Positions 10,710 through 60,835 of a DNA stretch of 64,000 nt are shown in pieces. Made by a program: the position numbers and the translations under genes. The stretch comes from Kiritimatiellia bacterium (lineage in GTDB: Bacteria > Verrucomicrobiota > Kiritimatiellia > PWTM01): positions 1 to 64,000 of the forward strand of contig JAOACR010000012.1 in NCBI GenBank assembly GCA_026417735.1, in the 5' to 3' direction. The notes below the pieces were generated by a model that saw only the letters and a list, made by a program, of their open reading frames with translations, had not been told where the DNA came from and did no database searches. How positions within the stretch are numbered: the first letter of the stretch is position 1; the number at the start of each line of letters is the position of its first letter.

Positions 10710-10754
10710 TCCAAGGATTGGACGCCCCCTCACCCCTCCCGTCCAACCGTTGGA
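10710..10754. repeat. Paired 13-bp palindromes, copy 1
   Basis: Two near-identical palindromic units, TCCAAGGATTGGA (10710-10722) and TCCAACCGTTGGA (10742-10754), share the form TCCAA-N3-TTGGA. Their starts are exactly 32 bp apart. They sit 23 bp after the sulfatase stop and about 105 bp before the next gene. The same arrangement recurs at 42680-42724 and 60791-60835. The stems are too short for a strong RNA hairpin, so a double protein-binding site on one face of the helix is more likely than a terminator. Confidence 0.75.
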
Positions 10755-10858
10755 GCACGTCCCTCCGCGAATGCGCCGCACCTCGCTTGCCGCCGGCCAT
10801 GCCGCACGCAGATGATGGGGGCGATGGAACGAACCGCCGTACCAGAGAGGTCCGAGCC

Positions 10859-12091
10859 ATGAACTCACGATCGCTTGCGTGCTTGCTCATCGTCTTCAGC
10901 ACCCTCTGGGTGGCCCGCGCCGCACCGCCGGCCGTCGCGTGGCGTCACCTGAGCAGCCGGCGCGGCGAGCTGCCGCTACCCAACGGCGGGCCCGAGCAGA
11001 CCGCCTGTGTGACGGCCGACTTCAATGGGGACGGCGCCGCCGACATCGTCATCGCCGAACGAACTCGCGCACCGTCGGTCATCGGTATCCGCTGGAATGG
11101 CAGCGGCTGGGATCGCTTCGTCATCGATGACACCGCTCGCCCCGTCGAGGCCGGTGGCGCGGCGGCCGACCTCGACGGCGACGCCGATCTCGACCTCGTG
11201 CTCGGCGGCGACTGGCGCAGCGATGAGGTCGTCTGGTACGAAAACCCCGGTGCGGGCGCTCCGCCGCAGCAGCGATGGGCACGAAGAATCCTCAAACGCG
11301 GCGGCGCAAAGGGACACCATGACCAGGTCGCCGCGGATCTGCTCGGCGCGGGACGGCCACAGGTCATTTTTTGGAACCAGGGCAGCCGTCGCCTCTTCCT
11401 CGCCGAACCGCCGCCCGATCCCCGCACCGCGGGGCCGTGGCCCCTGCGGGAGCTATTCGACGCCTCCACCACGCCATTGACCGTCAAACCCGAAGGGCTG
11501 GCCACCGCCGACGTTGACGGCGACGGCCGAATCGACCTGCTGGGCGGCGTCTGGTGGTTTCATGCGGACGGCGCCGGCCGGCTGCGACCGGTGCGGATCG
11601 CCGATCAGCCGGGTCGCATCCGGGCAGGTCGGTTCCGGCCGGGGCCCATTGCGCAGATCGTCGCTGCGCCCGGCGATGGAGACGGACCGCTCCTCTTCAT
11701 CGAGTGTGACGGCGACCCGCTCGACCCCGCCTCCTGGCGCCGGCGCGCGCTGCTCGACGGCCGCACGGTGATCCACGGCCACACACTCGACATCGCAGAC
11801 ATCAACGGGGACGGTCATCTCGACATCCTCTGCGCCGAAATGGCGAAGTGGAACATCCGGCGCTCCGAGCCCGACCATCCCAACGCCACCGCATGGATCC
11901 TGTACGGCGACGGGCAGGGCGGTTTTTTCACCACCGTGTTGAGCAGCGGCATCGGCTTTCACGAGGGCCGCATCGCGGACGTCAACGGCGACGGCCGCCC
12001 CGACATCGTGAACAAGCCCTTCAACTTCGACACGCCGCGCCTCGACATTTGGCTGAACCTCGGCTCGCCACCCTCGCAACCACCACGATAG
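10859..12091 (+). CDS. Secreted FG-GAP/VCBS repeat protein
   Basis: A 410-residue protein with a signal peptide (MNSRSLACLLIVFSTLWVARA) and at least five calcium-binding FG-GAP/VCBS repeats, each with a D-x-[DN]-G-D-G-x-x-D loop: DFNGDGAAD, DLDGDADLD, DVDGDGRID, DINGDGHLD and DVNGDGRPD. Such repeats form a beta-propeller that binds ligands or sugars outside the cell; no catalytic domain is seen. Proteins of this type are abundant in PVC bacteria next to sulfatases. AGAGAGGT lies shortly before the ATG. It may be transcribed with the sulfatase, but the paired palindromes lie between them. Confidence 0.8.
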   Translation: MNSRSLACLLIVFSTLWVARAAPPAVAWRHLSSRRGELPLPNGGPEQTACVTADFNGDGAADIVIAERTRAPSVIGIRWNGSGWDRFVIDDTARPVEAGGAAADLDGDADLDLVLGGDWRSDEVVWYENPGAGAPPQQRWARRILKRGGAKGHHDQVAADLLGAGRPQVIFWNQGSRRLFLAEPPPDPRTAGPWPLRELFDASTTPLTVKPEGLATADVDGDGRIDLLGGVWWFHADGAGRLRPVRIADQPGRIRAGRFRPGPIAQIVAAPGDGDGPLLFIECDGDPLDPASWRRRALLDGRTVIHGHTLDIADINGDGHLDILCAEMAKWNIRRSEPDHPNATAWILYGDGQGGFFTTVLSSGIGFHEGRIADVNGDGRPDIVNKPFNFDTPRLDIWLNLGSPPSQPPR

Positions 12092-12236
12092 CGCTGCCGA
12101 ACACGCCGAAACCGGGCCGACACTGTAAGGGGAACGAAACGCCGTCGGGCTGGAATCGCAGCGGGGACCGGTGCCGTCGGATCAGTCGGCGGTAACGAAA
12201 CAGCCCCCTCACCCCGGCACCAGGGGCCCGAACGCG

Positions 12237-13022
12237 TCAGTAACCGTCGCCGCCTACGGCGCCGGACGGCCGCTCGATCGGTTCGCCCACCGCTTCGCGT
12301 CGGCGAAACTCGTCGAGCATTGCGGCGGTCGCAGTTGCGCCGCAGCGCGTCGCCCCAAGTTGTCGAACACGAATCAGCCCGTCCAGATCGCGAACACCGC
12401 CCGCCGCCTTCACCTGAACACGTTCGGAACAGGCCGCGCGCATCAGCCGCAGATCGTGCTCTGTGGCTCCGCGATAGCTGTAGGAACCGTCGGATTGTTT
12501 CACAAAGCCGTACCCCGTCGAGGTTTTCACCCAATCCGCCCCCGCCCGTTCCGCGATCTCGCACAGCCGCCGCTTCAGCCCGTCGCCGTCCAGACCCGCG
12601 CCACCCCCGTGCAGAAAGTCGGTCTCGAGGATCACTTTCACCTTTGCGCCGTGGCGATGCGCCTCGTCACACACCGCGCGGACATCGGCCTCGACATAGG
12701 CCCAGTCGCCGCTGAGCGCCTTCCCGATGTTGATGACCATGTCCACTTCTTCCGCGCCGTCGCGACAAGCGATCTCGGTTTCGTAACGCTTCACCTCCGT
12801 CGTGGAGCTTCCGTGCGGAAATCCCACCACGCATCCCACACGCACGCCGGTCCCGCGCAGCAGTTCCACACAGCGGCGCACCGCGTAGGGTTTCACACAG
12901 ACCGACGCGACGCGATATCGCGCGGCCACTCGGCAGCCCTCCTCGATTTCACGGTCCGTCAGCGTGGGATGCAGCAGAGAGTGATCGATCATTTTCGCCA
13001 GCTCGTCGTAGTGGATCGTCAT
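12237..13022 (-). CDS. deoC: Deoxyribose-phosphate aldolase
   Basis: A 261-residue DeoC, a TIM-barrel class I aldolase that splits 2-deoxyribose 5-phosphate into glyceraldehyde 3-phosphate and acetaldehyde. The Schiff-base Lys lies in DWVKTSTGYGF and the second active-site Lys in VQVKAAGGVRD. The EVDMVINIGKALSGDW block is also typical. The start at 13022 overlaps the stop of the ROK kinase gene by ATGA, so the longer frame beginning at 13052 is rejected. It is the last gene of a four-gene minus-strand run (oxidoreductase, isomerase, ROK kinase, deoC) that looks like a sugar-catabolism operon. Confidence 0.93.
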   Translation of the reverse strand: MTIHYDELAKMIDHSLLHPTLTDREIEEGCRVAARYRVASVCVKPYAVRRCVELLRGTGVRVGCVVGFPHGSSTTEVKRYETEIACRDGAEEVDMVINIGKALSGDWAYVEADVRAVCDEAHRHGAKVKVILETDFLHGGGAGLDGDGLKRRLCEIAERAGADWVKTSTGYGFVKQSDGSYSYRGATEHDLRLMRAACSERVQVKAAGGVRDLDGLIRVRQLGATRCGATATAAMLDEFRRREAVGEPIERPSGAVGGDGY

Positions 13023-14023
13023 CGCTGGGCCTCCCCCTGCATTCGCGCGCACAACCCGCGCGCGCCGCCGGCCATCGCCAACGCAACACCTCCAAGCATT
13101 CCGGCACGTCCGCCGAGACGGCTGAGCTCGATCTGCACCGTATCCACCGGAAACATGCGCACCCGCCGCCGCACCTCATCGCGCAACGGTTCGAGCAGTT
13201 GCGCGCCCATCCCGGCCACTCCACCGCCGAGCACGACCAAGTCGGGATGCAACGCGGTGACGATGTTGGCGACGCCGATGCCAAGCCACCGCGCGGCGCG
13301 CTCAATCGCCCGCGCGACCAGCTCGTCGCCCTCCCTGGCGGCAGCGGCCATCGTTTCCGGCGTGATCCGGCCCACGTCGCCCCCCGTGATCTCCGCCAGC
13401 CGCGGCGCCAGACCCGACGCGACCAGCCGCACCCCCTCCGCGCGAATCGCCGGGCCGCTGGCCACCGTCTCCAGACAACCCCGACTGCCACATCCACACG
13501 GTGGACCGTCGGGCACCACCGTTTGGTGACCGAGCTCTCCCGCCGCACCCAGCGGGCCGAGCCGCAACACACCCTCCACCACCACCCCACCCCCGATACC
13601 GGTCCCAATCGCAAACATCGCCATCGTCGGACGATCGCGCCCCCGCCCCCAGCCGAACACCAGTTCGCCCAGCGTCGCGATGCGAACGTCGTTGAGCAGA
13701 TGCACTGGGCAGCCGAGCCGCTCCGCCAGCCACGCCGACACCGGCAAATCCCGCCACTGAGTCGGCAAATTCGGCAGGAAACGCGTCACTCCGGCGTTCA
13801 CGTCCGCCAGCCCCGGCACGCCCAGACCGAGCGCGACGGGGCGCACGCCCGCCTCGCGTACCGTCTGCTCCAGCAGGTCCGCAATTCGTTCCACCACGCG
13901 GCGCGGCCCCTCGTACGCGCAGGTCGGTGCGCACCTCTCCGCAAGCACCTCGCCCTCGGCGGTTGCGACCGCGACGCCAATCGTCGTGCCGCCGAGGTCC
14001 GCGCCCGCCCACACCTCCCGCAT
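13019..14023 (-). CDS. ROK-family sugar kinase
   Basis: A 334-residue ROK protein. It opens with the phosphate-binding motif ADLGGTTIGVAVA and contains the ROK zinc signature in HQTVVPDGPPCGCGSRGCLE. The catalytic Asp is expected in LLNDVRIATLGE, and TGIGGGVVVEG is the second glycine loop. There is no N-terminal helix-turn-helix, so it is a kinase (glucokinase, fructokinase, ManNAc or allose kinase type) rather than a repressor. Substrate specificity cannot be read from sequence. It ends in an ATGA overlap with deoC and starts 7 bp after the isomerase gene. Confidence 0.9.
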   Translation of the reverse strand: MREVWAGADLGGTTIGVAVATAEGEVLAERCAPTCAYEGPRRVVERIADLLEQTVREAGVRPVALGLGVPGLADVNAGVTRFLPNLPTQWRDLPVSAWLAERLGCPVHLLNDVRIATLGELVFGWGRGRDRPTMAMFAIGTGIGGGVVVEGVLRLGPLGAAGELGHQTVVPDGPPCGCGSRGCLETVASGPAIRAEGVRLVASGLAPRLAEITGGDVGRITPETMAAAAREGDELVARAIERAARWLGIGVANIVTALHPDLVVLGGGVAGMGAQLLEPLRDEVRRRVRMFPVDTVQIELSRLGGRAGMLGGVALAMAGGARGLCARMQGEAQR

Positions 14024-14030
14024 CGCCGCC

Positions 14031-14954
14031 TCAGCGCTGGATGAAATTGCGAAGATGCCGCGCCGCGGTCCGCAACGCCCGCTGTCGTCCCTCCAGCGAC
14101 TTCCCGAACGCGTCGTCTTCCACCTCGATGCACACCGGCCCCTCGTAGCCGACCGACATCAGCTCGCCGACGAACCGTCCCCAGTCAATCTCCCCCAATC
14201 CCGGAATGCACGGCTCGTGGTACTGCAGCGGCGTCGCCAGGATGCCGACCTCGTTCAGCCGGTCGCGCCGGATCCGAACGTCCTTCGCGTGAATGTGGAA
14301 CAACCGCTCACGAAACTCGCGCAGCGGCGCCAGCCAGTCCATGTGCTGCCAGACCAAATGGGAAGGATCGTAGTTCAGCCCGAAATGACGTGACGGGATC
14401 TCCTCGAACATCCGCCGCCAGATCGCCGGCGCGTGCGCAAGGTTTTTGCCGCCGGGCCACTCGTCGCGCGTGAACAACATCGGACAGTTTTCGATGCCGA
14501 TCCGCACGCCGTGGTCCTCCGCGAACTGCACCAGCGGCTTCCACGTCTTGCGGAACGCGGCCCAGTTCTCGTCCACGCTCTTCGTCCAGTCGCGACCGAT
14601 AAACGTGTTCATCTGCCGCACGCCGAGCAGCTCCGCGGCGAGGATCACCTTGCGGATATGCGCGACCGCCGCTTTCGCGACCTCGGGGTCCGGATCCAAC
14701 GGGTTCGGATAATAGCCAAGACCGCTGATCGCCACGCCGTGCGCCTGCAGTGCGCCGTGAATGTCCTCCGCGCGCGCCTGCGTCAGCGTCGTCACATCCA
14801 CGTGGGTGACGCCCGCATACTTCCGTTCCGCCCGGCCCACCGGCCAGCACATCAGTTCGACGCAATCGAACCCCTCCGCCGCCGCAAACTTCGCAACCGA
14901 CTCGAGGTCGAGGTCGGGCAGAATCGCACTGACGAATCCGAGCTGGATCATCAC
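14031..14954 (-). CDS. Sugar phosphate isomerase/epimerase (xylose-isomerase-like TIM barrel)
   Basis: A 307-residue TIM-barrel protein of the AP-endonuclease-2 / xylose isomerase-like family. Metal-binding residues fall in [29 protein letters not shown] and [10 protein letters not shown], giving the expected Glu-Asp-His-Glu set. No signal peptide. The family includes inosose isomerases, hydroxypyruvate isomerase and many uncharacterised sugar isomerases. It follows an oxidoreductase gene by 18 bp and precedes the ROK kinase, so all three probably act on one sugar or polyol. A GAAAGGA sequence precedes the ATG. Confidence 0.88.
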
Positions 14955-14972
14955 CGTCTCCTTTCCTTTCCT

Positions 14973-16160
14973 TTAGCTCCGCCGGCGTTCCACCGGGAAT
15001 TCATGCCGCCGCACCGCGACCCAACGGCGGACCGCGGCGCTGCGCCGGATCGCCTCACACACCGCCACCTCCTCGTGCCCGTCCCGGACGGTCGCATACA
15101 GCGGCTCGGCGGGCGGGCCGTCAAGGATGGCGCTGTAAATTGCCCGGAAGTTCATCTTGAACGTGTCCGGAAAACCCTCCACGTGTCCCGGCGGATGGTC
15201 CATGTATCCCGCCGCGCCGCGGCCAAAGGCGGGCGTCGCCCGCACCGCACTCGCGTTCGGCTCGTCCCGCCGCCCCAGATGGAGCATCTCGGGGTCCTCC
15301 GAGCACCACCAGACGGACTGCTTCGAACCGTAGATCTCCACTCGAAGGCAGTTCTTGCGGCCGGCCGCGACCTGGGACACCGCCAGATTCCCGCGCGCGC
15401 CATTCTCGAATTCGAGCAGCACGGACCCGCAGTCCTCGGTCTTCACCTGGTACGGCGCCGTCCGCACCCGGCCGGCCGCGCGCGCGAACGTCTGCACCTC
15501 GCCCAGCGGCCGACGACGCACGGAGTGAAACGTCAGCAGATCCGCCATCACCGCCCTCACGCGAGCGCCGATCACAAACGAGACCAGATCCAGCCAGTGC
15601 GTGCCGATGTCCGCGACCGCACGCAACGCCCCGCCTTCCGCCGGCAGCAACCGCCAGTTGTAATCGGTTTCCTTGAACAGCCAGTCCTGAAAGTAGGAAC
15701 CGTTCACGTGAATCACCCGGCCGAGTTCGCCCGATCGCACCAGCTCGCGCATCTGCAGCACCGCCGGATAGAAACGACAGTTGTAGTTCACCGCGAAAAT
15801 CTGCCTCGGCCGCGCCTCCACTTCGCGAACGAGCCTCGCGGTCTGGCGGGTCGTCATCGCGAGCGGTTTTTCGCAAACGACGTGCCGGCCCGCCTCCAGC
15901 GCCGCAAGCGCCATTGCCTCGTGCCAGCGGTTGGGCGAGGCAATGTGTACGACGTCCACCTCCGGATCCGCCACCAGCTGCCGGTGGTCGCCGTAGGCCT
16001 TCGGAATGCCCAGTCGTGACGCCGCCGCGTTCACCACACCGGGCACGTCGCACAACGCGCTCACTCGCACGCCGAGGCGTCTCAGCGCCTCCACGTGCAC
16101 CGGCCCGATGAAACCGGCCCCAATCACCCCCACCCGCACGTCGTGCAGCGATCGCTTCAT
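14973..16160 (-). CDS. Gfo/Idh/MocA-family NAD(P)-dependent oxidoreductase
   Basis: A 395-residue sugar or polyol dehydrogenase-like protein. The N-terminal Rossmann fold has VRVGVIGAGFIGPVHVEAL, followed by VVHIASPNRWH and the hallmark VVCEKPLA, where Lys is the catalytic residue. A later ADIGTHWLDL segment supplies the active-site Asp/His pair. There is no Tat signal. GGAGG lies 8 bases before the ATG at 16160, so the longer open frame from 16283 is not used. It heads the minus-strand operon that ends with deoC, and a likely extended -10 promoter lies about 105 bp upstream. Confidence 0.9.
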   Translation of the reverse strand: MKRSLHDVRVGVIGAGFIGPVHVEALRRLGVRVSALCDVPGVVNAAASRLGIPKAYGDHRQLVADPEVDVVHIASPNRWHEAMALAALEAGRHVVCEKPLAMTTRQTARLVREVEARPRQIFAVNYNCRFYPAVLQMRELVRSGELGRVIHVNGSYFQDWLFKETDYNWRLLPAEGGALRAVADIGTHWLDLVSFVIGARVRAVMADLLTFHSVRRRPLGEVQTFARAAGRVRTAPYQVKTEDCGSVLLEFENGARGNLAVSQVAAGRKNCLRVEIYGSKQSVWWCSEDPEMLHLGRRDEPNASAVRATPAFGRGAAGYMDHPPGHVEGFPDTFKMNFRAIYSAILDGPPAEPLYATVRDGHEEVAVCEAIRRSAAVRRWVAVRRHEFPVERRRS

Positions 16161-16271
16161 TCCGCCTCCAGCGGCACCACCATGACAAACCCACACGGCC
16201 ATCGTCGCGCCTCTCTCAACGCGGATCTGGCCGTTTCGATCGAACTGTGCCGACCGGACCGGTGCGCTCAC

Positions 16272-16280
16272 ATCATAGCA
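16272..16280 (-). promoter_or_regulatory. Candidate extended -10 promoter of the Gfo/Idh-isomerase-ROK-deoC operon
   Basis: On the minus strand the sequence TGC-TATGAT matches an extended -10 element (TGN plus TATGAT). No good -35 is found 17 bp upstream, which is tolerated for extended -10 promoters. Transcription would start near 16265, giving a leader of about 105 bases before the ATG at 16160. Confidence 0.4.
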
Positions 16281-16454
16281 CACGCCGGCGCCAACCAGTT
16301 GCAGAGTCCTTCGACGCCGCCACCGGAACGGCGATTGATCTCCGATTCGCGGGCCGAAGACGGGAAGGCGCGCGAACCCAAGTCCGCGGCTGATGGGCCG
16401 TGCGCATCACCACCGCGCTTTTCTTCCCCGTCCGGAGCCGGTACAACCGCAGCG

Positions 16455-16889
16455 ATGCGCGCCACCGTGATCGAACGCTGCTCGAACAGCCCCGCAGAGA
16501 CCGCCCAGGCCGCAGCGGAACTTGCCGGCCGTCTGCGGGCCGGTGTCACGGTCGCGCTCTTCGGCGAGCTCGGTGCGGGCAAGACCACCTTTGCGCGGGC
16601 GCTGTGCCGCGCGCTGGGGGTGACCGAGCCGGTCGCCAGTCCCGGCTTCACCCTCGTGCACGAGTACCGCGGGGCCGTGCCGGTGATTCACGCTGACCTG
16701 TATCGGCTGCGGCGCGATCCGCTCGAGATCGCCTCGCTCGGACTGGACGACGTGCCGGCGGAGGCGATTCGAATCATCGAATGGGCGGACCGCGCACCGG
16801 AGTTGTGCCCCGCGAACGCGGTCCGCGTGGAGATTCGGGTCGGCCCATCGCCGACGGAGCGCCGCATCCGCATGGAGCTGCCCGAATGA
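16455..16889 (+). CDS. tsaE: tRNA threonylcarbamoyladenosine biosynthesis ATPase
   Basis: A 144-residue TsaE (YjeE). The Walker A is FGELGAGKTTFARAL, followed by the family block SPGFTLVHEYRG, then the HADLYRL motif and IIEWADR. It works with TsaB and TsaD to form t6A37 on ANN-decoding tRNAs. Its stop overlaps the tsaB start by ATGA, so the pair is coupled. TsaD and TsaC are not in the window. The ATG at 16455 is the first one giving the family's normal length; the longer frame from 16095 overlaps the divergent oxidoreductase and is rejected. Confidence 0.93.
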   Translation: MRATVIERCSNSPAETAQAAAELAGRLRAGVTVALFGELGAGKTTFARALCRALGVTEPVASPGFTLVHEYRGAVPVIHADLYRLRRDPLEIASLGLDDVPAEAIRIIEWADRAPELCPANAVRVEIRVGPSPTERRIRMELPE

Positions 16890-17599
16890 GCCCACCGCGC
16901 GCAGTGGTGGCGCTGGACCTGTCCGCTGCGGTCGGCTCGGCCGCATGGATGGAGCAGGACGACACCATCGCAGAGATCGAGTGGCCACAGCCGCCGCGCG
17001 ACAACCGCGCCACATTCGAGCACCTCCGCGCGCTGCTCTTTTCGGAGGGTCGGCACCCCGCGCAGGTGGAACTGTGGGTGGTTGGCTGCGGGCCCGGCGC
17101 GTACAGCGGCCTGCGGATCGCGACGGCGGCGATCCACATGTTTGCGGCTCCGCTCGGTCGACCGGTGATCGGCATCGACAGCGGTCTGGCGACCGGCGAC
17201 GAGTTGCTGAGGAGAGTGCCGGTCGACGATGCGATCATCGCCGGCGACGCGCGGAGGGGGCTGGCCTGGTTCGGGCGGATCCGCCGCGCCGACGACGGCA
17301 GCGCCGAGCTGGTGGCGCCCTGGAGCCTCTGCGCGCTCACAGAGCTCGAAGCGAAGGTGCCGCCGGCGGGCTGCGGCGGGTCCGCAGAATGGTCCCGCCT
17401 TGCGCACGCCGCCCGGCTGACCGCCGCGGAGGGGCGCTGGTGGCCGGAAGACCTGGTGCCGCGGGCACGCCATCTGGCGCGCCGCGCGATCGAGCTTTGG
17501 ACGCGCGGCCAGCCGCTGCCACCGGCGCTGCCGATCTATCTGCAGCCGCCCGTCGCGACCGGATCGGGTCTCACCCCGTCGGGCGGGTCGGCGGTTTGA
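16886..17599 (+). CDS. tsaB: tRNA threonylcarbamoyladenosine biosynthesis protein TsaB
   Basis: A 237-residue TsaB (YeaZ) of the ASKHA fold. It has the start block VVALDLSAAVGSAAW and the signature VVGCGPGAYSGLRIATA, matching the usual G-P-G-S-[FY]-T-G-L-R-[IV]-G. TsaB is the non-catalytic scaffold for TsaD in t6A synthesis. The gene is coupled to tsaE by ATGA. Its last 29 bases overlap the end of the convergent lpxD, so the two transcripts are antisense at their 3' ends. The protein is rather divergent outside the signature. Confidence 0.88.
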   Translation: MSPPRAVVALDLSAAVGSAAWMEQDDTIAEIEWPQPPRDNRATFEHLRALLFSEGRHPAQVELWVVGCGPGAYSGLRIATAAIHMFAAPLGRPVIGIDSGLATGDELLRRVPVDDAIIAGDARRGLAWFGRIRRADDGSAELVAPWSLCALTELEAKVPPAGCGGSAEWSRLAHAARLTAAEGRWWPEDLVPRARHLARRAIELWTRGQPLPPALPIYLQPPVATGSGLTPSGGSAV

Positions 17600-18638: not shown

Positions 18639-18648
18639 AAGCCGGCAC

Positions 18649-19293: not shown

Positions 19294-19317
19294 CCCCGCA
19301 CGCCCTTTCCCCGTCCA

Positions 19318-27029: not shown

Positions 27030-27103
27030 TGGTTGCCCGACCAGGAGTCGAACCTGGACTCTGGCCTCCAAAGGGCCGTGTGCTGCCATTACACCATCGG
27101 GCA
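27030..27103 (-). tRNA. tRNA-Gln (anticodon TTG)
   Basis: A 74-base gene on the minus strand including an encoded CCA. It starts TGCCCGATGGTGTAATGGC, has an anticodon loop CTTTGGA (TTG at positions 34-36), a T-arm GGTTCGACTCC, and an acceptor stem closing TGCCCGA/TCGGGCA. It lies 19 bp upstream of prs. A short hairpin (GTGGA/TCCAC) lies just upstream at about 27104-27120. Confidence 0.96.
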
Positions 27104-34693: not shown

Positions 34694-34780
34694 GCACCCG
34701 TGGTGGAATTGGCAGACACGTAAGATTCAGGTTCTTATGCCCGCGAGGGCGTGGGGGTTCGACTCCCTCCGGGTGCACCA
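34694..34780 (+). tRNA. tRNA-Leu (anticodon CAG)
   Basis: An 87-base class II tRNA with encoded CCA. It starts GCACCCGTGGTGGAATTGG, has an anticodon stem TAAGA/TCTTA around the loop TTCAGGT (CAG), a long variable arm (TGCCCGCGAGGGCG), a T-arm GGGGGTTCGACTCCC, and an acceptor stem GCACCCG/CGGGTGC. It reads CTG leucine codons. Confidence 0.96.
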
Positions 34781-41456: not shown

Positions 41457-42668
41457 ATGAGGCTCGCCGACGACGGCGTCCACCATCTGGTTTACTGCCT
41501 CAACATCCATCCCGGGGAGCGCTGGGCAGACCAGCTGGCCGCCATTGAGTCGTGCTGCGCGCAGCTACGCCGGCGGCTCGCTCCCGGCCGGCCCTTCGGG
41601 CTGGGATTGCGCATCTCCGCGCAGGCCGCCCGCTGGCTCGAGCGGCCCGGCCGCTGCATTGCCGCCCTTCGCCGCCTCACTGAGCTGGGCATGTACGCGG
41701 TCACCATCAACGGCTTCCCCTACGGTCGTTTTCACGGCGGTCCGGTGAAGGAACGCGTCTACGCCCCGGACTGGCGGTCCGACGCACGCCTCGCCTACAC
41801 GCTGCGCCTCGCCCGCATCCTCGCCGGGTGGCTGCCGCCCGACGTCCCCGGCAGCATCAGCACGGTGCCCGGCTCCTTCGGACCATGGGTGCGCCACCGT
41901 GCCGCGATCGGCGCCATCGTCCGCCGCTGGATCGCCGCGGTGCATGCGCTGGACGAACTGCGCCGAACCACCGGCCGCCACATCGCTCTCGCGATCGAGC
42001 CAGAGCCGGACTGCTGGATCGAAACCGCCACCGGCTTTGTCGAGACCTTTGACCGTACCGTGCTGCCCCTCGGCGCCCCGCAGCTCGCGCGCCTGGCCGG
42101 TACCACACTGCCGGAGGCGGAACGCGCGATCCGCCAGCACCTCGGCATCTGCCTCGATACCTGCCACCTCTGGGTAAACCGCGAGTCCCCCACCGACGCG
42201 CTGGCACGATTGCGGCGCGCCGGCATCACAGTCGCGAAGGTCCAGGTCAGCGCCGCGCCCGGCGCGCCGAACACTCCTGCCGGCCGTCGCGCGCTGCGAC
42301 GCTTCGCCGACGACGTTTACCTTCACCAAACCCGCGCCGGCGACGGCCCGCTCGAACGCGCGCGATGGACCGACCTACCCCGGGCGTTGCGCGAACTACC
42401 CGCGCTGCCCGCCCGTTGGACGGTGCGCACCCACTGCCACATTCCCCTCGTCCACGCCCCCGTCGCACCGCTGCGCTCAAGCTCGGCCTCGCTCGACGCG
42501 GAGTTCTGGCGCGCGGCACTCGCGGCGACCGCTGTCTTCGAAATCGAAACGTACACCTTTTTCGCCCTCCCCCGGTCCGTCCGCCGCCACAGCCTCACCG
42601 ATTCCATCGAAGCCGAATATCGCTGGTGCCTGCGGCGGCTCCGCCGCGCGCTGCGCGGGGCAACCTGA
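41457..42668 (+). CDS. EboE-like xylose-isomerase-fold protein
   Basis: A 403-residue TIM-barrel protein matching EboE, the metabolite-traffic protein of ebo clusters: LVYCLNIHPGERWADQLAAI, FGLGLRISAQAARWL, TINGFPYGRFH, LAIEPEPDCWIE and LGICLDTCHLWV. In complete ebo clusters it occurs with EboA, B (TatD-like), C (UbiA-like), D and F and helps move prenylated compounds to the periplasm. None of those partners is here. It sits 34 bp after the mutarotase, so it may have been adopted by a sugar pathway. A weak GAGAAC-type ribosome site precedes the ATG. Confidence 0.75.
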   Translation: MRLADDGVHHLVYCLNIHPGERWADQLAAIESCCAQLRRRLAPGRPFGLGLRISAQAARWLERPGRCIAALRRLTELGMYAVTINGFPYGRFHGGPVKERVYAPDWRSDARLAYTLRLARILAGWLPPDVPGSISTVPGSFGPWVRHRAAIGAIVRRWIAAVHALDELRRTTGRHIALAIEPEPDCWIETATGFVETFDRTVLPLGAPQLARLAGTTLPEAERAIRQHLGICLDTCHLWVNRESPTDALARLRRAGITVAKVQVSAAPGAPNTPAGRRALRRFADDVYLHQTRAGDGPLERARWTDLPRALRELPALPARWTVRTHCHIPLVHAPVAPLRSSSASLDAEFWRAALAATAVFEIETYTFFALPRSVRRHSLTDSIEAEYRWCLRRLRRALRGAT

Positions 42669-42679: not shown

Positions 42680-42724
42680 TCCAATCCTTGGACTCCACCG
42701 CGCAGTCCGCTTCCAATCCTTGGA
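42680..42724. repeat. Paired 13-bp palindromes, copy 2
   Basis: Two identical units TCCAATCCTTGGA at 42680-42692 and 42712-42724, again with 32 bp between starts. The core is the reverse complement of the first unit at 10710. The pair occupies the short gap between the EboE-like gene (stop 42668) and the convergent polyferredoxin gene (stop 42748). Spacer sequence is unrelated to the other copies. Confidence 0.8.
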
Positions 42725-42747: not shown

Positions 42748-43941
42748 TCAGCCCGCCTCGCTGCGCGCCCGCACCACAATCGCGCGTTCCGGCGACACGG
42801 GACACTCCGCCTCACAGGCGCCGCAGCCGGTGCAACGCGCCACCTCGACCACCACGCGGGATTGGAAACCGTCACCAGCCACGCGGATCGCCCCGTACGG
42901 GCACACCGTCTGACAGATCGAGCACTCCCGACCCTGCGAGAGCCAGCAAATCGCATGCCGTACCTCGGCAAGTCCGATCGGCCGCTCCAGTTTCATCGCG
43001 GGTTCCGCAAGCGGCTGCAACGCTCCGCTCGGACACACCTGGGAGCAGCGGACGCACTCCGGTCGGCAGAAGTCCGTCGAGAAGTCCAGCCGCGGCGTCA
43101 GCCACGATGTCCAGCCCGCACTGTCGCCGCCAGCATCGGGGCGGATGATCCGCGCGGGACAGACGCCGACACATTGACCGCACCGCAGGCACAGCGCCCG
43201 GAATTCCGCCTCCGGCACCGCACCCGGCGGCCGCACCGGCCTGCGACCCGAGCTTCCGTCGTGGCGTGCCAGCACACCACCAACGATCCCAACGCCAAAC
43301 CCGCCCAGTCCGACCAATACTCGCCGGCGGGACAGCCCCGCCGTCGAACCCCGCAGCGGCGCAGCTGACGGCCGCACCAGATCCTGCAGCGCCCCGAGCG
43401 GACACACCGACGCACACCACGCGCCCGGCCGGATCAACGATATGAGCAACGGTAGTCCCAGACTCACCGCCGAAAGCGCCAGCGCTCCGCTACGCATCCA
43501 GATCAGCCGGCCTGCCGCACGCGAGATCACCAGCGGATCCAGCCATCCCCCCCACGCGAGGCCGGCCGCCGCCATCCCCATGCTGGCGACCAGTACCGTC
43601 AAGCCAACCACGGGTGACCACTGCCGCCCACGCGCGCCCGGCCGGCGAGACGCCAGGTCCAACAGCGGCCCGAGAGGACACGCCCACCGGCAGATCGCCC
43701 GCCGCCGCATCGTCGCCCACACGGCCAGCGGTACCGCCACCCAAAGTGACCCCAGAAGCCGGCGGCTCGCGAGCGCCGCGACCGCCCCCGCATACGGGCT
43801 GGCCGCCGACGCAACCCGCGCCGCCAGCTCCGGCAGACCGGGCCACGCCAGCAACACCCACACAGCCAGTACCGCCCACCGCACATCTCGCCGAGTGCGA
43901 TGCGCCGCCGGGCTGCGCTGCCAATTCGCCGATTCGTTCAT
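42748..43941 (-). CDS. Membrane polyferredoxin, NapH/NapG-like fusion
   Basis: A 397-residue protein. The N-terminal half has about four or five membrane helices and two NapH-type motifs, CRWACPLGPLLDL and CASVCPLGALQDL. An internal SRRRVLVGLGGFGVGIVGGVL then resembles a NapG Tat signal and leads into a soluble part with four Fe-S motifs: CLRCGQCVGVCP, CVRCSQVCPSGAL, CSICQTVCPYGAI and CTGCGACEAECP. It looks like a quinol-linked electron carrier to the periplasm. It diverges from the spermidine-synthase-like and radical SAM genes and probably supplies them or a partner with electrons. The ATG at 43941 follows GGAGCC. Confidence 0.82.
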   Translation of the reverse strand: MNESANWQRSPAAHRTRRDVRWAVLAVWVLLAWPGLPELAARVASAASPYAGAVAALASRRLLGSLWVAVPLAVWATMRRRAICRWACPLGPLLDLASRRPGARGRQWSPVVGLTVLVASMGMAAAGLAWGGWLDPLVISRAAGRLIWMRSGALALSAVSLGLPLLISLIRPGAWCASVCPLGALQDLVRPSAAPLRGSTAGLSRRRVLVGLGGFGVGIVGGVLARHDGSSGRRPVRPPGAVPEAEFRALCLRCGQCVGVCPARIIRPDAGGDSAGWTSWLTPRLDFSTDFCRPECVRCSQVCPSGALQPLAEPAMKLERPIGLAEVRHAICWLSQGRECSICQTVCPYGAIRVAGDGFQSRVVVEVARCTGCGACEAECPVSPERAIVVRARSEAG

Positions 43942-44102
43942 CACACGATCCGCGGCTCCGCTCCGCCGCGGGGCTCCCGCAGTGGTGGCGCCCAGCGGGT
44001 GCTGCCACACTGTCGAACATACGTCAGCGCCACACACCCCGCCAACGCGCGCGCTGTTCGCAGGACCCCCCGCATGAACGAAGGCCGCACACTCCGGAGC
44101 GA

Positions 44103-50744: not shown

Positions 50745-50805
50745 GCAGATTGATGGCTCGCCCGGAGGTCATGGGGGCCTTCGGAGCAGCCCGGGAGGTA
50801 GTCCG

Positions 50806-51378: not shown

Positions 51379-51396
51379 GACGAACGGCCGGAAGTG

Positions 51397-51430: not shown

Positions 51431-51462
51431 TCGGAAAGGTCGGTGGTGGGAAGACGCAGCCG

Positions 51463-51837: not shown

Positions 51838-51846
51838 GCGCGAAAC

Positions 51847-52623: not shown

Positions 52624-52720
52624 CGCGACAACCTCCATGCGCAGCTCGTGGCGCGCCCTCGCCGCGCGACCGCGGCCACCGCTCATTTATATCGCCGGTC
52701 GCCGCCGGTGACCAGCGCAA

Positions 52721-54219: not shown

Positions 54220-54265
54220 CGCCGTGGCCTCCACGGCGCGCAGCGGCGCCGGCAGAATCGCAGCA

Positions 54266-54646: not shown

Positions 54647-54704
54647 CGCGCGTGATCATGCCCAAGTCTCCGCCATCGCGAAAGTACTTCCGCGGTCCGC
54701 TTCG

Positions 54705-55487
54705 TCAACCGCAGCCGTCTGGCGGCGAGGTGTCGTCACCGGCCGACTCGGCCGTCATCACCCCATCGGCCGGGCGCGCGCGGATCACCGCGCCCGGTGG
54801 CACCTCCAGGAACCGATCTGAGGGCCACGGGCCAAACACCAGCTGCCGCAACCAGCCGGGATCGCCGTCACACACCTCCAACGCCCAGCCCCGCTCCGCC
54901 GCGCGCCGGCGGGCTTCGGCTTCGAACTGATCGTCGGGCCCGCAGCCGGTGCGGATGTACAGATAGCGGTGATAGGCGGCCACCCCTCCCGCCAGCGTCT
55001 CCACGATGTACCGCGCGTTCTCCTCGCCGAACTGCCGTACCAGTTCCTCAAACGACTGGTCCAGCCCCAGCCGGTGAAGCACCGTCTGCTGCCGCAGCTC
55101 CTCGCCCGGTTCGCCGCGCTCGATCCACCCCGGCGTCAAAAAGTAGGTCCCCGGCATCGCCTCAAACACCTCACGGTAGCGCTCCGGGCTGCCCAGAAAC
55201 AGGCCGATACAATCGTGGGAGCGCGGCACAATCAGCGGCGTCGCGCGCGCCCGCACACCCGCCACCCCGTTGTTGCACAGGCCAAACCCCAGCAGAATCC
55301 GCTCGTAGCGGCCCGCCGGCACCGCGTCCACCGCCGCCTGCACCCGCGCGCGCATGTCCGCCGACGGCAGATCGTGCAGGCCCTTCGGCAGAAACTCGAG
55401 GTCCACCCGATGCGGCGCCGAGGCCACCAGTGCGCAGAGCTCGCGGAAGAAGATCTCGCATCCGATCAGTTTGAACATCGGTGCCAT
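54705..55487 (-). CDS. DUF1638 family protein
   Basis: A 260-residue protein starting MAPMFKLIGCEIFFREL. The family hallmark is ILLGFGLCNNGVAGV, followed by ATPLIVPRSHDCIGLFLGS. DUF1638 proteins are often found near corrinoid/methyltransferase or metal-related genes, but their reaction is not established to my knowledge. The conserved Cys (GLC), His-Asp-Cys (SHDC) and Glu residues suggest a metal site. AAGGTGG lies 7 bases before the ATG at 55487. It diverges from the DksA-like operon. Confidence 0.85.
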   Translation of the reverse strand: MAPMFKLIGCEIFFRELCALVASAPHRVDLEFLPKGLHDLPSADMRARVQAAVDAVPAGRYERILLGFGLCNNGVAGVRARATPLIVPRSHDCIGLFLGSPERYREVFEAMPGTYFLTPGWIERGEPGEELRQQTVLHRLGLDQSFEELVRQFGEENARYIVETLAGGVAAYHRYLYIRTGCGPDDQFEAEARRRAAERGWALEVCDGDPGWLRQLVFGPWPSDRFLEVPPGAVIRARPADGVMTAESAGDDTSPPDGCG

Positions 55488-55570
55488 GTTGCACCACCTT
55501 CGCCCGCCCATCGCCGCCGCGCAAGCGCGCTCCCGCCGGTTCGCCCTCCTCGGCTCCCCCCCCGTCGCGT

Positions 55571-55599
55571 TTGACTTCTCTCCGTCTCTGGAGTACACA
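55571..55599 (+). promoter_or_regulatory. Sigma-70 promoter of the DksA-like-lspA-miaA-hflX-radC-lpxA operon
   Basis: TTGACT (55571-55576) and TACACA (55594-55599) are 17 bp apart, the best consensus match in the window. Transcription would start near 55606 and leave about 50 bases to the ATG at 55657, which has AGGAG just upstream. Confidence 0.72.
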
Positions 55600-55656
55600 T
55601 CCACGCCTTTTGAGCGACCCGGGAACCGCGGTCCCGAGGGAAACGAGGAGACAGGC

Positions 55657-56364
55657 ATGGCCAGTAAGAAGAAGACGTCCCGGCGACCCGGAAAGGCGCA
55701 GAAGCGCAAGACAGTCGCGCGGCCCGCACGCGCATCGGGATCCCGCGCAACGCGCGCCGCAAAGGCTGCGCCCCGCAAGGCTCGTCCCGCACCGGCCCCC
55801 GCGAGATCGCACGCGCCTCGCGTGGCGACAAAGAGAACGCCGGCGGGCCCCAGCCGCTCCGCGCCCCGCCCGACGCCGCCGGCGACCGAGCCCGCCCCTG
55901 CCACGACGAAGCTCTCGCGCTCGCCACTGAGCCGCAAGGACCTCGAAATGTTCCGCCAGATGCTGCTGAACCTGCGCGACCGCATCGTGGATGGCATTTC
56001 GTTCCTCGCGGGCGACAACCTCAACAAGTCCCAGCGCGACGCGAGTGGAGATTTGTCGAATCACGCGGTGCACATGGCCGACCAGGGTACCGACAACTTC
56101 GATCGTGAGTTCGCGCTCTCGCTGGTCAGCAATGAACAGGAAATCCTCTACGAAATTGACGAGGCGCTTCACCGAATTGACGCCGGCACGTACGGCATCT
56201 GCGAACTGACCGGCCGGCCCATCGAGATTGAGCGGCTCAAGGTGCTGCCCTATGCCCGCTACTGCCGCGAGGCGCAGGAGCAGCTCGAGCGGAACCGCAA
56301 ACGGTTCCGGCCGTTCGCCTCCTCCGGAATTCCGGGCGAGACCTTCGGCTCGCAGGAGAACTGA
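55657..56364 (+). CDS. TraR/DksA-family protein with basic N-terminal extension and incomplete zinc finger
   Basis: A 235-residue protein. The first 90 residues are Lys/Arg/Ala/Pro-rich, histone-like. The remainder (about 92-220) is DksA-like: MLLNLRDRIVDGISFLAG, SNEQEILYEIDEALHRIDAGTYGICELTGRPIEIERLKVLPYARYCREAQ. Of the four zinc Cys in DksA (C-x2-C ... C-x2-C), only the first of each pair is present (CELT and CREA). It may bind RNA polymerase without zinc. The basic tail could bind DNA or RNA. It opens the operon and is followed by lspA 17 bp later. Confidence 0.82.
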   Translation: MASKKKTSRRPGKAQKRKTVARPARASGSRATRAAKAAPRKARPAPAPARSHAPRVATKRTPAGPSRSAPRPTPPATEPAPATTKLSRSPLSRKDLEMFRQMLLNLRDRIVDGISFLAGDNLNKSQRDASGDLSNHAVHMADQGTDNFDREFALSLVSNEQEILYEIDEALHRIDAGTYGICELTGRPIEIERLKVLPYARYCREAQEQLERNRKRFRPFASSGIPGETFGSQEN

Positions 56365-56381
56365 CGGAGCATCTTCCCCCG

Positions 56382-56867
56382 ATGCTGGCGCTGGCCGTCG
56401 CGGTCGTGCTCGTGCTCAGCGACCAGTGGACCAAGGAACTGGTACGACACACGTTCGCGCTGTACGAAACGCGCCCGCTTCTCGACGGCTTCGCCTACCT
56501 CACCTACGTGCGCAACACCGGCGCCGCCTGGGGGATGTTCCGCGGTGCGAACTTCTGGCTCGCGATGATCTCTCTGGTCACGCTCCTCCTGCTGGTCGGG
56601 TTCCGGTCCGTACTGGTCCGGCCGACCCGCGCGCACCGCGTCGCGCTCGGACTACTGGTGGGCGGCATCGTCGGCAACCTGATGGACCGCCTCCGGCTGG
56701 GTTATGTCACCGACTTCATCAGCCTGCAGTTCGGTCGTTACGAGTTTCCGGCGTTCAATCTCGCCGACAGCGGCATCACGCTGGCGATGATCACCTTTGC
56801 GGTTTCGAGCTGGTGGGCGGAACGTCGCGAACGCCGCGCGCCAGCGCCCCGCGCCCCCGATGCCTGA
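56382..56867 (+). CDS. lspA: Lipoprotein signal peptidase
   Basis: A 161-residue signal peptidase II, an inner-membrane aspartyl protease that removes lipoprotein signal peptides. It has four hydrophobic helices, the motif VRNTGAAWGMF, and the catalytic Asp regions GGIVGNLMDRLRLGYVTDFI and FNLADSGI. The C-terminal Arg/Ala/Pro tail overlaps the start of miaA by 8 bp. The window itself contains an LspA substrate, the coiled-coil lipoprotein. Confidence 0.94.
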   Translation: MLALAVAVVLVLSDQWTKELVRHTFALYETRPLLDGFAYLTYVRNTGAAWGMFRGANFWLAMISLVTLLLLVGFRSVLVRPTRAHRVALGLLVGGIVGNLMDRLRLGYVTDFISLQFGRYEFPAFNLADSGITLAMITFAVSSWWAERRERRAPAPRAPDA

Positions 56868-57795
56868 CATCGTGGCCACGCCGCTGTTCACGCTCGCCGG
56901 TCCCACCGCCGTCGGCAAGACCGCCGTCGCCCACCGGCTCGCCGAACAACTCGGGGCGCGGATTCTTTCGGTGGACTCGATGCTCGTCTATCGGGGCATG
57001 GATGTCGGCACGGACAAGCCACCGCGCGCGCAGCTCGACGCGTTCGGCTACGCGGGCGTGAACCTGGTGGACCCCTCGGAAACCTGCAGCGTCGGGCGGT
57101 ACCTGCAGTCGGTTCGTGACCCTCTGGCCGACCGGCGCCAGCCCTGGATCGCGGTCGGGGGCACCGGCCTCTACTTCCGATGCCTGCTACAGGGCCTCGC
57201 ACCGCGGCCGGCCGCCGAGCCCTCCGCCCGCACCGAGGCCGAAGCGGTGCTCCGACAGAGCGGCCTCCGCGGTCTGCAACAGCTGGTGCGCGGTGCGGCG
57301 CCGGCCGCCTACGCGCAGCTGCGCGATCCCGAGAATCCGCGGCGATTGATCCGGATCTACGAAATCGCGCGACAGGGCGGCGAAGCGACACCCCCGGCCA
57401 CGTGGCCCGCCCCGCCCCGTCTCGTCGGTCTCTGGCGCGAAAAAGCCGATCTCGACCGCCGCATCGCGGACCGGGTTCGCCGGATGTTCTCGGCCGGCCT
57501 GCTCGACGAAGCGGCGGCGCTGCGCTCGCGGCCGGGCGGCCTCGCGGACGCCGCGCTGCAGGCGATCGGCTATCGCGAGGCGCTCGCGGTGCTGGATGGC
57601 CGGCTCACCGTCGAAGAAGCCATCGCCGAAACCATCCGCCGCACGCGCCGGCTCGCGCGCCGCCAGATGACATGGTTCCGGCACCAGGCCAAAATGGAGT
57701 GGGTCCGGGTGCGTCCGGACGCAACAGTCGAAAGCGTGGCGGACGCGGTGCGCCGGCTGTGGGAACGCGATGGACCGATCGCCACCGCAATCTGA
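56860..57795 (+). CDS. miaA: tRNA dimethylallyltransferase
   Basis: A 311-residue MiaA that adds the isopentenyl group to A37 of UNN-reading tRNAs. The nucleotide loop is LAGPTAVGKTAVAHRLA, followed by SVDSMLVYRGMDVGTDKP and VGGTGLYFRCLLQGL, and the C-terminal AIGYREAL and RRLARRQMTWFRHQ blocks. It overlaps lspA by 8 bp and hflX by 26 bp. The miaA-hflX order is also seen in many proteobacteria. Confidence 0.95.
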   Translation: MPDIVATPLFTLAGPTAVGKTAVAHRLAEQLGARILSVDSMLVYRGMDVGTDKPPRAQLDAFGYAGVNLVDPSETCSVGRYLQSVRDPLADRRQPWIAVGGTGLYFRCLLQGLAPRPAAEPSARTEAEAVLRQSGLRGLQQLVRGAAPAAYAQLRDPENPRRLIRIYEIARQGGEATPPATWPAPPRLVGLWREKADLDRRIADRVRRMFSAGLLDEAAALRSRPGGLADAALQAIGYREALAVLDGRLTVEEAIAETIRRTRRLARRQMTWFRHQAKMEWVRVRPDATVESVADAVRRLWERDGPIATAI

Positions 57796-59062
57796 ACCGG
57801 CGGCCACAGAGGTCGCATGGCTCGTCGGCGTGCGACACGGCAACGAGCCGGAGTGGTCCGCCCGCGAAACGCTCGACGAACTGCGAGAGCTCGCCTGCAC
57901 CGCCGGCGTGCGCGTCGCCGGGGAATCGCTGGTGCGACTGCGCGAGCCCGATGCCGCAACCTGGATCGGCCGCGGGCGCGCGGAAGCGATCGGGCGCGAG
58001 GCGGCGGCCGCCGGCGCGACGCTGTTGATCTTCGACGACGACCTTGCTCCCGCGCAGGCCCGCAATCTCGAGGATCTCACCGGCCTGCGCGCGCTGGATC
58101 GCACCCAGCTGATCCTCGACATCTTCGCGCAGCGCGCCCACACCAGCGAGGGGCGGCTGCAGATCGAGCTCGCACAGCTGGAATATCTGCGACCACGACT
58201 GCGGCACAGCCGAGGCCGGCTCGAGCAGCAGCGGGGCGGCATCGGCCTGCGGGGTCCCGGTGAGACGCGCCTGGAAATGGACCGCCGCCGCATCGACCGC
58301 CGGATCGCGCGGATCCGTGCCGAGCTCGAGCTGGTACGAGAACGCCGCGAGGAACTGCGGCGCGGCCGTCGCCGCCACGGTTGGGCGCTCGTCTGCCTCG
58401 TCGGTTATACGAACGCCGGCAAATCCACACTGCTCAACGCGCTGTGCGGCGCAGAGGTGCTCGCGGATGACCGTCTCTTCGCGACGCTCGATCCCACCAC
58501 CCGGCGCCTTGAACTGCCGAACCACCAGCCCGCGCTGCTGACCGACACTGTCGGATTCATCCGCAAGCTCCCGCACCGGCTGATCGAGGCCTTTCAGGCC
58601 ACGCTCGAGGAGGCCGCCCGCGCCGACCTGCTGGTACACGTGGTGGACTGCGCACACGCCGCCGCCGACCGGCACATCGAGGCGGTGGACGCCGTCCTGC
58701 GCGAGATCGGGGCCGCCGATCGGCCGCGGATCCTCGCACTGAACAAGACCGACCTGCCCGGCGCGGCCGACCGGGCGCGGCGGCTCGCCCACGGTGCCGG
58801 CCAGTGCGTCCTCATCTCGGCGGCGCGCGGTGAGGGACTCGACGAACTCCGCTGGGCGATTGCGGAAGCCCTGCGCGAGCGCGGGCTCCCCTTCGAGATC
58901 GAGGTGCCCGCCACCGACGGCCGCACGCTCGCGTTGATCCGCGAACATGCGGCCATACAATCGGAGAGCATGAACGGCGAGCGCATTCGGCTCAGCGGCA
59001 CCATCCCCGCACGCCATCGCGCGCTGATCGAGCCGTACCGTTCGGCGGAGCCGCCCCCGTGA
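57770..59062 (+). CDS. hflX: GTPase HflX
   Basis: A 430-residue HflX, a ribosome-associated GTPase that splits stalled ribosomes. The N-terminal domain and helical linker contain IELAQLEYLRPRLRHSRGRLEQQRGGIGLRGPGETRLEMDRR (checked in parts). The G domain has GYTNAGKSTLLNAL, DTVGFIRKLPHRLIEAF and NKTDLPG. Its stop overlaps the radC start by GTGA. Confidence 0.95.
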   Translation: MDRSPPQSEPAATEVAWLVGVRHGNEPEWSARETLDELRELACTAGVRVAGESLVRLREPDAATWIGRGRAEAIGREAAAAGATLLIFDDDLAPAQARNLEDLTGLRALDRTQLILDIFAQRAHTSEGRLQIELAQLEYLRPRLRHSRGRLEQQRGGIGLRGPGETRLEMDRRRIDRRIARIRAELELVRERREELRRGRRRHGWALVCLVGYTNAGKSTLLNALCGAEVLADDRLFATLDPTTRRLELPNHQPALLTDTVGFIRKLPHRLIEAFQATLEEAARADLLVHVVDCAHAAADRHIEAVDAVLREIGAADRPRILALNKTDLPGAADRARRLAHGAGQCVLISAARGEGLDELRWAIAEALRERGLPFEIEVPATDGRTLALIREHAAIQSESMNGERIRLSGTIPARHRALIEPYRSAEPPP

Positions 59063-59832
59063 ACGACCCCACCCAGCGGCCCGCGATGGTCTACCCCGCC
59101 GCGGTGCGCATCCGCGATCTCCCTCCCGACCTGCAGCCCCGCGAACTGCTGGAGCGCTTCGGCCCCGCCCACGTGCCGGACGATGTGTTGCTGGCGGTGC
59201 TGCTGCGCACCGGCATGCGCGGGCGCAACGTGCTGGAGCTCGCGCGCGACCTCCTCCGACAGCACCGCTCGCTCGCGGAGCTCAGCCGCGCCTCGCTCGC
59301 GGAACTCGCCTCGATCAAGAGCATCAAGAAGGTGAAGGCGCTGACACTGCTGGCCGCGTTCGAGCTCGGGCGACGAGTGCGCGACGAACAGCTCCGCGAC
59401 CGCCCCGCGATCCGCAGCCCCGCCGACGTGGACCGCGCAGTCCGCCCTCACGCGGAGCGCGAGACCGTCGAAGTGTTCTGGGTGCTGCCGCTCAACAAGA
59501 AAAACCGGCTGATCCCCCGGCATCCCGTCGAGATCACCCGCGGCATCCTCGACGCAAGCCTCGTGCACCCGCGCGAGGTCTTCGAGCCCGCGATCCGCGC
59601 CTGCAGCGCGGCGGTCATCCTCTGCCACAACCACCCCTCCGGCGACCCGACGCCCTCCGCGGACGATCTCGCAATGACCCGCCGCCTCGTCGCCGCCGGT
59701 CGGGCCGTGGACATTCGCGTGCTCGACCACGTGATTCTCGGCCGCGCCGCGCACCCCGATTCCCCCGCCCGCTACTGCAGCCTTCGGGAATCGGGACTGG
59801 TCAGCTTCGACGACACGGACGCGCCGCCATGA
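59059..59832 (+). CDS. radC: RadC-family JAB1/MPN protein
   Basis: A 257-residue RadC. The helix-hairpin-helix-like N-terminal part (LPPDLQPRELLERFG, IKSIKKVKALTLLAAFELGRR) precedes the JAB metal motif CHNHPSGDPTPSADD (H-x-H-x-n-D), with the upstream Glu. Despite the name, a DNA-repair role is not established. The start is a GTG overlapping hflX. The stop overlaps lpxA by ATGA. Confidence 0.93.
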   Translation: MNDPTQRPAMVYPAAVRIRDLPPDLQPRELLERFGPAHVPDDVLLAVLLRTGMRGRNVLELARDLLRQHRSLAELSRASLAELASIKSIKKVKALTLLAAFELGRRVRDEQLRDRPAIRSPADVDRAVRPHAERETVEVFWVLPLNKKNRLIPRHPVEITRGILDASLVHPREVFEPAIRACSAAVILCHNHPSGDPTPSADDLAMTRRLVAAGRAVDIRVLDHVILGRAAHPDSPARYCSLRESGLVSFDDTDAPP

Positions 59833-60638
59833 GCATCCACCCCACCGCGATCGTCCACCCCCGCGCGGAGCTCGGCAACGATGTCGAGATCGGTCCCGGC
59901 GCGGTGATCGGCCCGCACGTTGTCGTCGGCGACCGCTGCCGCATCGGCCCCTACGCGGTACTGCTCGAACATGTCCGCCTCGGCCCCGACTGCCGCATCC
60001 ACGCGCACGCAGTGCTCGGCGACGTACCGCAGGACCTCAAATTCCGCGGCGCCGACAGCCACGTCGAAATTGGCGAGCGCTGCGTGATCCGCGAGGGCGT
60101 GACCATCCACCGCGGCACCCATGCGGGCTCGGCCACCGTGATCGGCCCGGGCTGCTTTCTGATGGCGAACAGTCACGTCGCGCACAACTGCCGCCTCGGT
60201 GCAGGCGTGATCCTCGCCAACGGCGTGTTGCTCGCCGGCGATGTGGAAATCGGCGACCGCGCGTTCCTCAGCGGCAATGTGATCGTGCACCAGTTTACCC
60301 GCATCGGCGCGCTCGCGATGATCGGCGGCGGCGCGGGTATCGGTTTGGACATCCTGCCGGGATGCACCGCCGCAGGCGTGGAGCGCAACCGCGTGGCCGG
60401 GCTGAACCTGGTCGGCCTACGGCGTGCCGGCGTGACGCCGGAAGAGCGCCAGCAACTCCGCGCCGCATTCCGATTGGTCTTTCAGTCCGGTCGACCTCTC
60501 GCAGAGGTGATGGAACGCCTCCGGACAGACTTCACAGAGGGGCTCGCCGCCACATGGGCGGCTTTCATCGAGGGATCCCGCCGCGGCATCTGCCGGCGCT
60601 GCCGGCGGCGCCGAGAAGACGCCGACGAAGCCGACTGA
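59829..60638 (+). CDS. lpxA: UDP-N-acetylglucosamine acyltransferase
   Basis: A 269-residue LpxA, the first lipid A enzyme, which transfers a 3-hydroxyacyl chain to UDP-GlcNAc. A left-handed beta-helix begins IHPTAIVHPRAELGNDVEIG. The catalytic His is in ANSHVAHNCRLG; the typical PQDLKFRG and GVTIHRGT segments are present. The C-terminal helical part ends in an Arg/Asp-rich tail slightly longer than usual. It is far from lpxD in this window (about 41 kb) and belongs to the DksA-like operon. Confidence 0.95.
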   Translation: MSIHPTAIVHPRAELGNDVEIGPGAVIGPHVVVGDRCRIGPYAVLLEHVRLGPDCRIHAHAVLGDVPQDLKFRGADSHVEIGERCVIREGVTIHRGTHAGSATVIGPGCFLMANSHVAHNCRLGAGVILANGVLLAGDVEIGDRAFLSGNVIVHQFTRIGALAMIGGGAGIGLDILPGCTAAGVERNRVAGLNLVGLRRAGVTPEERQQLRAAFRLVFQSGRPLAEVMERLRTDFTEGLAATWAAFIEGSRRGICRRCRRRREDADEAD

Positions 60639-60790
60639 GAGATCCCTCCCGCCGGCGCAACCGCCATTTCCAGGGACCGCAACGGCCCGTCGCAGGTGCG
60701 TCCGCGCATAGCAGTTCCCCTCCCATGCGCTTGGTTGAGATCGTGCTCCGGCTCCGCTCGAACCGCTGGACGGGGCGGCCTCGGGCGCTG

Positions 60791-60835
60791 TCCAAGGTTT
60801 GGAAACGCCCGCTCGGTGGCCATCCCATCCATGGA
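60791..60835. repeat. Paired 13-bp palindromes, copy 3
   Basis: TCCAAGGTTTGGA (60791-60803) and the degenerate TCCCATCCATGGA (60823-60835), again 32 bp start to start. A further weak match, TCGAACCGCTGGA, lies at 60758-60770, 33 bp upstream. They occupy the 245-bp gap between lpxA and the convergent secreted cysteine-protease-like gene. Confidence 0.65.

Follow-up and report, generated by a model that had tools for sequence, protein, structure and literature searches.

The 64,000-nucleotide stretch of DNA analysed here (the window) carries three paired palindromic sites of the form TCCAA-N3-TTGGA, each in a gap between genes (no strand is assigned to any unit). The first comprises two exact units, one at 10710..10722 (TCCAAGGATTGGA) and the other 32 bp further on at 10742..10754 (TCCAACCGTTGGA), between a sulfatase gene (9262-10686, plus strand) and an FG-GAP repeat gene (10859-12091, plus strand). 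At the second, the exact unit TCCAATCCTTGGA is present twice, at 42680..42692 and, again 32 bp on, at 42712..42724, in a convergent gap between a xylose-isomerase-like TIM-barrel gene (41457-42668, plus) and a gene for a 4Fe-4S protein (42748-43944, minus). The third also occupies a convergent gap, between lpxA (59829-60638, plus) and a C39-peptidase-like gene (60884-62581, minus), where an exact unit at 60791..60803 (TCCAAGGTTTGGA) is followed 32 bp later by a degenerate one (8/10) at 60823..60835 (TCCCATCCATGGA), giving a pair score of 18/20. A sequence-only reading of the window had counted six TCCAA-N3-TTGGA units, always 32 bp apart; five are exact (10710, 10742, 42680, 42712 and 60791) and that at 60823 has two mismatches, and the distance is true of all three sites, including the degenerate one. 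Two tRNA genes also lie in the window (27033-27103, minus; 34694-34777, plus).

The five exact units compare with 0.04 expected by chance in the window, and none of 100 shuffles gave five. Across the whole genome (G000) there are 102 exact TCCAAN3TTGGA units against two for a control, the same pattern read backwards, and 81 pairs at exactly 32 bp against none for the control when up to 3 mismatches over 20 positions are allowed, a density of one pair per 38 kb. The spacing peak is sharp: on a 551 kb contig of G000 (C9, 9 kb of which is missing from the scan) 12 pairs with a score of 17/20 or more stand at a spacing of 32 bp, against zero or one at each of the 19 other spacings within 24-43 bp. 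Both the excess over chance and the preferred distance suggested by the window therefore hold genome-wide. Exact neighbours stand at 32 bp in 25/25 pairs in sampled G000 DNA and in 16/16 in the congener G001, and of 19 units in G000 that seem to stand alone, 17 are accompanied by a degenerate unit (8-9/10) exactly 32 bp to one side. By the evidence of sequence, the element is the pair and not the single unit, a composite site of ~45 bp consisting of two 13-bp dyads, TCCAA-NSN-TTGGA, with centres 32 bp apart and 19 bases between the units.

A G or C occupies the centre of 94-100% of units. Of 28 mismatches within pairs, 25 affect the two As of the half-site and none its second C (position 3), so that the CC/GG core is spared, a distribution that resembles what might be expected for a pattern of protein contacts. 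Spacers and flanks differ between sites, as the window had indicated: in G000 the similarity among spacers is 0.387 against 0.361 for shuffled sequence (25 pairs) and that among flanks 0.350 against 0.348. As the spacers are no more alike than when shuffled, the pair is not a copied element.

Arrays of 2-7 units, with steps of 31 or 32 bp and two- and threefold multiples of these, occur in other families of the class. In G013 the step is 31 bp 22 times, 32 bp 20 times and 39 bp once, with multiples of 62-64 and 93-95 bp where an inner unit has been lost; arrays in G022 alternate between 31 and 32 bp and reach seven units, and those of G045 and G124 are bounded on either side by 22-bp steps (e.g. 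22-31-31-31-31-22). All array steps approximate an integral number of ~10.5-bp helical turns. The core of the unit is common to the families despite different flanks, which are TTTTCCAA...TTGGAAAA in G013, G124 and G187 and AAAACTTCCAA...TTGGAAGTTTT in family f15. Three arrays from the families of G045 and G124 (L132:392-572, L139:7083-7262 and L140:6843-6991) are symmetric, with 22-bp ends and 30-31-bp steps inside, as if the end units were special caps. At two loci of G045 (L130, ~8040-8110; L131, ~1510-1600) the unit is split into TTCCAAGG and GTTTGGAA by a longer GC-rich inverted repeat, CCCCGATA..TATCGGGGCGGG, at its centre, which gives the impression of an inserted REP-like element.

Gene calls from a purpose-built caller based on codon usage place 34 of 44 sampled G000 clusters between genes, in DNA that is 91% coding, in agreement with the bias apparent in the window, and at least one of the ten 'genic' clusters (L022) probably results from a mis-called start. 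All three window sites do lie just after a plus-strand gene, as had been remarked, but this arrangement does not extend to the genome, where 11 clusters are in convergent, nine in divergent and 14 in tandem gaps. The corresponding counts in G013 (13, 12 and 26) are proportional to the intergenic length of each context (10.9, 10.2 and 19.9 kb, respectively), and in neither genome do the contexts favour promoters, the ends of genes or convergent gaps. The genes flanking the sites are varied, housekeeping genes; pyrE adjoins a pair in both G000 and G013, which may reflect an old site or chance. This orientation-blind placement among varied housekeeping neighbours argues against both regulon operators and terminators. 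Units are present on 19 of the 24 contigs of G000, every long contig seen among them.

Four clusters occupy the same orthologous gaps in G000 and G001, whose orthologues have a median identity of 77%, and a fifth is offset by one gene in the gene calls while its DNA aligns unit on unit; the remaining G000 clusters are not common to G001. The cleanest alignment (L023/L094) retains both dyads, with spacer, central triplets and flanks diverged, and in another (L029/L079) one of the two units persists beside a decayed partner. Retention of the dyads while the flanks diverge indicates selection on the dyads and their distance.

Exact pairs are present in 39 of the 131 genomes of the class (a count made by hand from a table) and in none of the 257 other genomes of the phylum, and pairs of the control pattern have no match in any of these 388 genomes. 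The carrier class is probably Kiritimatiellia of Verrucomicrobiota; the link to Kiritimatiellota-like genomes made in the sequence-only reading fits in that the pairs are limited to one class, the name of which is our assumption. The single named genome with a match is an 'uncultured Lentisphaerae' MAG. Literature searches found no publication describing the motif, and the published description of Pontiella mentions no such repeat. Distribution within the class is patchy: unit counts per genome range from 0 to 1,477, many families are without pairs, and within a single genus one species lacks pairs altogether where others have 81 and 49. This patchiness and the differences between sister species indicate that the system is dispensable. 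Nor is it a phage feature, as exact pairs occur in only 6 of 2.9 million viral contigs. These six putative viral contigs are L117-L123.

A different pattern is seen in G046 (family f16), which has 97 units at random spacing and one exact pair, with 38 of 55 sampled units inside genes. These occur in all three frames, indicating that the sequence is selected as DNA and not as protein. As the G046 units are unpaired and genic, pairing and placement are features of lineages, and the role of the unit may differ between them; as a side reading, the G046 pattern (L144-L163) could represent a different use of the unit or a relic of the system.

Along the chromosome, sites in three of the genomes tested are more even than random, recurring about every 40, 25 and 5 kb. 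In G000 the 52 intervals (contig ends partly approximated) have a mean of 40 kb and a minimum of 12.7 kb, a minimum matched in none of 20,000 random placements, and on C9, with degenerate pairs included, the interval CV is 0.46 against 0.90 for random (P 0.0045). The CV is 0.64 against 0.89 in G001 (P 0.003), and 0.56 in G013 (mean interval 5.0 kb) against random values of 0.82-1.16, the lower of which is for draws restricted to whole intergenic gaps; none of 5,000 draws was as even. Even spacing is absent in G029 (CV 0.84, P 0.37) and G046 (CV 1.02, P 0.68), and evenness is real in families f1 and f6 and not general. A second ruler was considered from eight of the 52 G000 intervals that fall at 31.5-32.15 kb, but no such peak is visible by eye in G001 and degenerate sites split some long G000 intervals, so this cluster was treated as chance, which it probably is.

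The interpretation put forward from the window, a site for a dimeric or tetrameric DNA-binding protein, a chromosome-organising site or a dispersed motif, is the best supported, with binder and function both putative, because the spacing corresponds to whole helical turns and the placement ignores the direction of transcription. That the sites reflect cooperative binding by a putative dimeric protein we consider highly probable. Each dyad, two 5-bp half-sites about a 3-bp centre, would be the footprint of one dimer of a sequence-specific DNA-binding protein, and with three turns between their sites two dimers would lie on one side of the DNA, touching or bridging. The phasing suggests cooperative binding, with a dimer of dimers forming on a pair, or a short filament on arrays, which reach seven units. 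Since the sites are scattered, intergenic, blind to orientation and, in three genomes, even, we infer a part in organising the chromosome and not in the control of particular promoters; the protein may package or anchor the chromosome, by packaging, loop anchoring or coupling to segregation or division. The full reading, phased sites of a putative dimeric DNA-binding protein together with chromosome organisation, we favour with modest confidence. No recurring DNA-binding gene was found next to the longest arrays, or next to intergenic sites in G000, G001, G013 and G046.

Known chromosome-organising systems offer partial parallels. The matS site is a 13-bp palindrome with a 3-bp loose centre, and the present sites likewise contain a 13-bp palindromic word that recurs at intervals of tens of kb (40 kb on average in G000). 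However, matS sites are single and, in E. coli, confined to Ter (23 sites in 800 kb, PMC3330122), whereas here pairs or arrays occur on nearly all large contigs and the site sequence is not the same. MatP (PF06303) was found in none of 58 class genomes, with the E. coli control positive, and identity with MatP/matS was rejected given the lack of MatP, the absence of confinement to the terminus and the other sequence. NBS, the 16-bp site of Noc (PMC8429893), is scattered over the chromosome (PMC4331003), and the present sites share with those of Noc/NBS and ParB/parS, which are bound by dimers, their palindromic form and wide scatter, but differ in motif, odd centre and pairing. ParB is present as a rule once per class genome, with one PF02195 match each in G000, G001, G013, G040, G043 and G046, and no second ParB paralogue (Noc) is consistent among carriers; the Noc/NBS reading was rejected as none of the six carriers tested has a second ParB-family protein. 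The sites were also rejected as parS, since the motif differs from the parS consensus TGTTNCACGTGNAACA. Canonical parS (TGTTCCACGTGGAACA) has 1-3 copies in 45 of 58 class genomes, true parS is separate from the pairs in carriers such as G001, G029 and G040, and no exact TGTTCCACGTGGAACA is found in G000. The presence of ParB and canonical parS in the class indicates that basic segregation is independent of the paired sites. The class has TGTTCCACGTGGAACA as its parS in place of the usual TGTTTCACGTGAAACA; two copies are often found within some tens of bp of each other (e.g. G029:C13:16384 and 16432).

Of the alternatives to chromosome organisation, the one that survives best supposes that the sites are operators of a global transcription regulator binding its dyads cooperatively, their spread reflecting a large regulon. 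Repressor and activator operators are typically dyads that have degenerate positions and are helically phased, and divergent promoter gaps hold 9/44 clusters in G000 and 12/60 in G013. We nevertheless regard this as unlikely, because in G013 convergent gaps, which contain no promoters, are as rich per base as divergent gaps, the flanking genes are without a common theme, and even spacing is not expected of a regulon.

It is improbable that the motif is a DNA uptake sequence, a word that the competence machinery prefers and that transformation disperses through the genome. The uptake sequences of Neisseria and Haemophilus are scattered in hundreds to thousands of copies, with variation from one relative to another, and the present motif is similarly dispersed, with a high copy number that varies between related species, even spacing in some genomes and frequent intragenic copies in G046. 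But those words are not known to be dyads, to be locked at 31/32 bp or to show any whole-turn phasing, and the strong intergenic bias in G000 and the phased arrays also count against uptake.

Hairpins acting at the level of RNA, as terminators or 3' end protectors, are a decidedly improbable explanation. A single unit is capable of a 5-bp hairpin, and strong folding of arrays (z -9.9) is inherent in any series of palindromes, but the window sites fold little or no better than shuffles (z -2.2, -1.0 and +0.3) and have no Rfam match, the two tRNAs being the only Rfam matches in the window. The stem in G013 has T before it and A after it, the reverse of a terminator, one array gave 1 terminator-like site against 1.7 expected, gene ends are not favoured (divergent gaps in G013 being as rich per base), and whole-turn spacing is a property of DNA.

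Descent from a small mobile repeat (REP/BIME or MITE-like) is very improbable. REP/BIME elements are also intergenic palindromes, often paired, and some spacers common to sites or to neighbouring units in G040, G187 and G124 indicate that local duplication occurs; BIME spacers, however, are copied along with the element whereas those of G000 are unrelated between copies, the spacer and flank similarities given above are not what copying of a 45-bp element would give, and pairs persist at orthologous gaps as their flanks diverge. HIP1 of cyanobacteria resembles the present unit as a palindrome of high copy number that varies between species and lies partly within genes (here in G046), but we know of no paired phasing in it. 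A HIP1-like iterated palindrome, maintained through methylation and repair of the DNA in place of a structural protein, is likewise very improbable here, for although an overrepresented palindrome is spread through genes in G046 and HIPs have a link with methyltransferases (PMC4390886), HIP1 itself consists of eight contiguous bases (GCGATCGC) and the present element a mostly intergenic dyad of degenerate centre and fixed helical pairing, which needs a protein sensing both units.

Returning to the chromosome-organising interpretation, its most specific form, which we advance tentatively, is a class-specific system in which a putative dimeric protein would occupy phased pairs and arrays at near-regular intervals of ~5 to 40 kb, forming anchors or short filaments that set loop size. 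Its action would be like that of MatP/matS or Noc/NBS with unrelated protein and site, and it would have been gained or lost between close species. Chromosome-organising sites are known from few model groups. If this interpretation is true, the present site would be readable from sequence alone and would carry a built-in ruler, 32 bp between dimers and a near-regular number of kb between sites. The arrays offer a simple bait for finding the binding protein, and the on/off variation between sister species would allow comparative tests of loop spacing and nucleoid architecture in a little-studied phylum.
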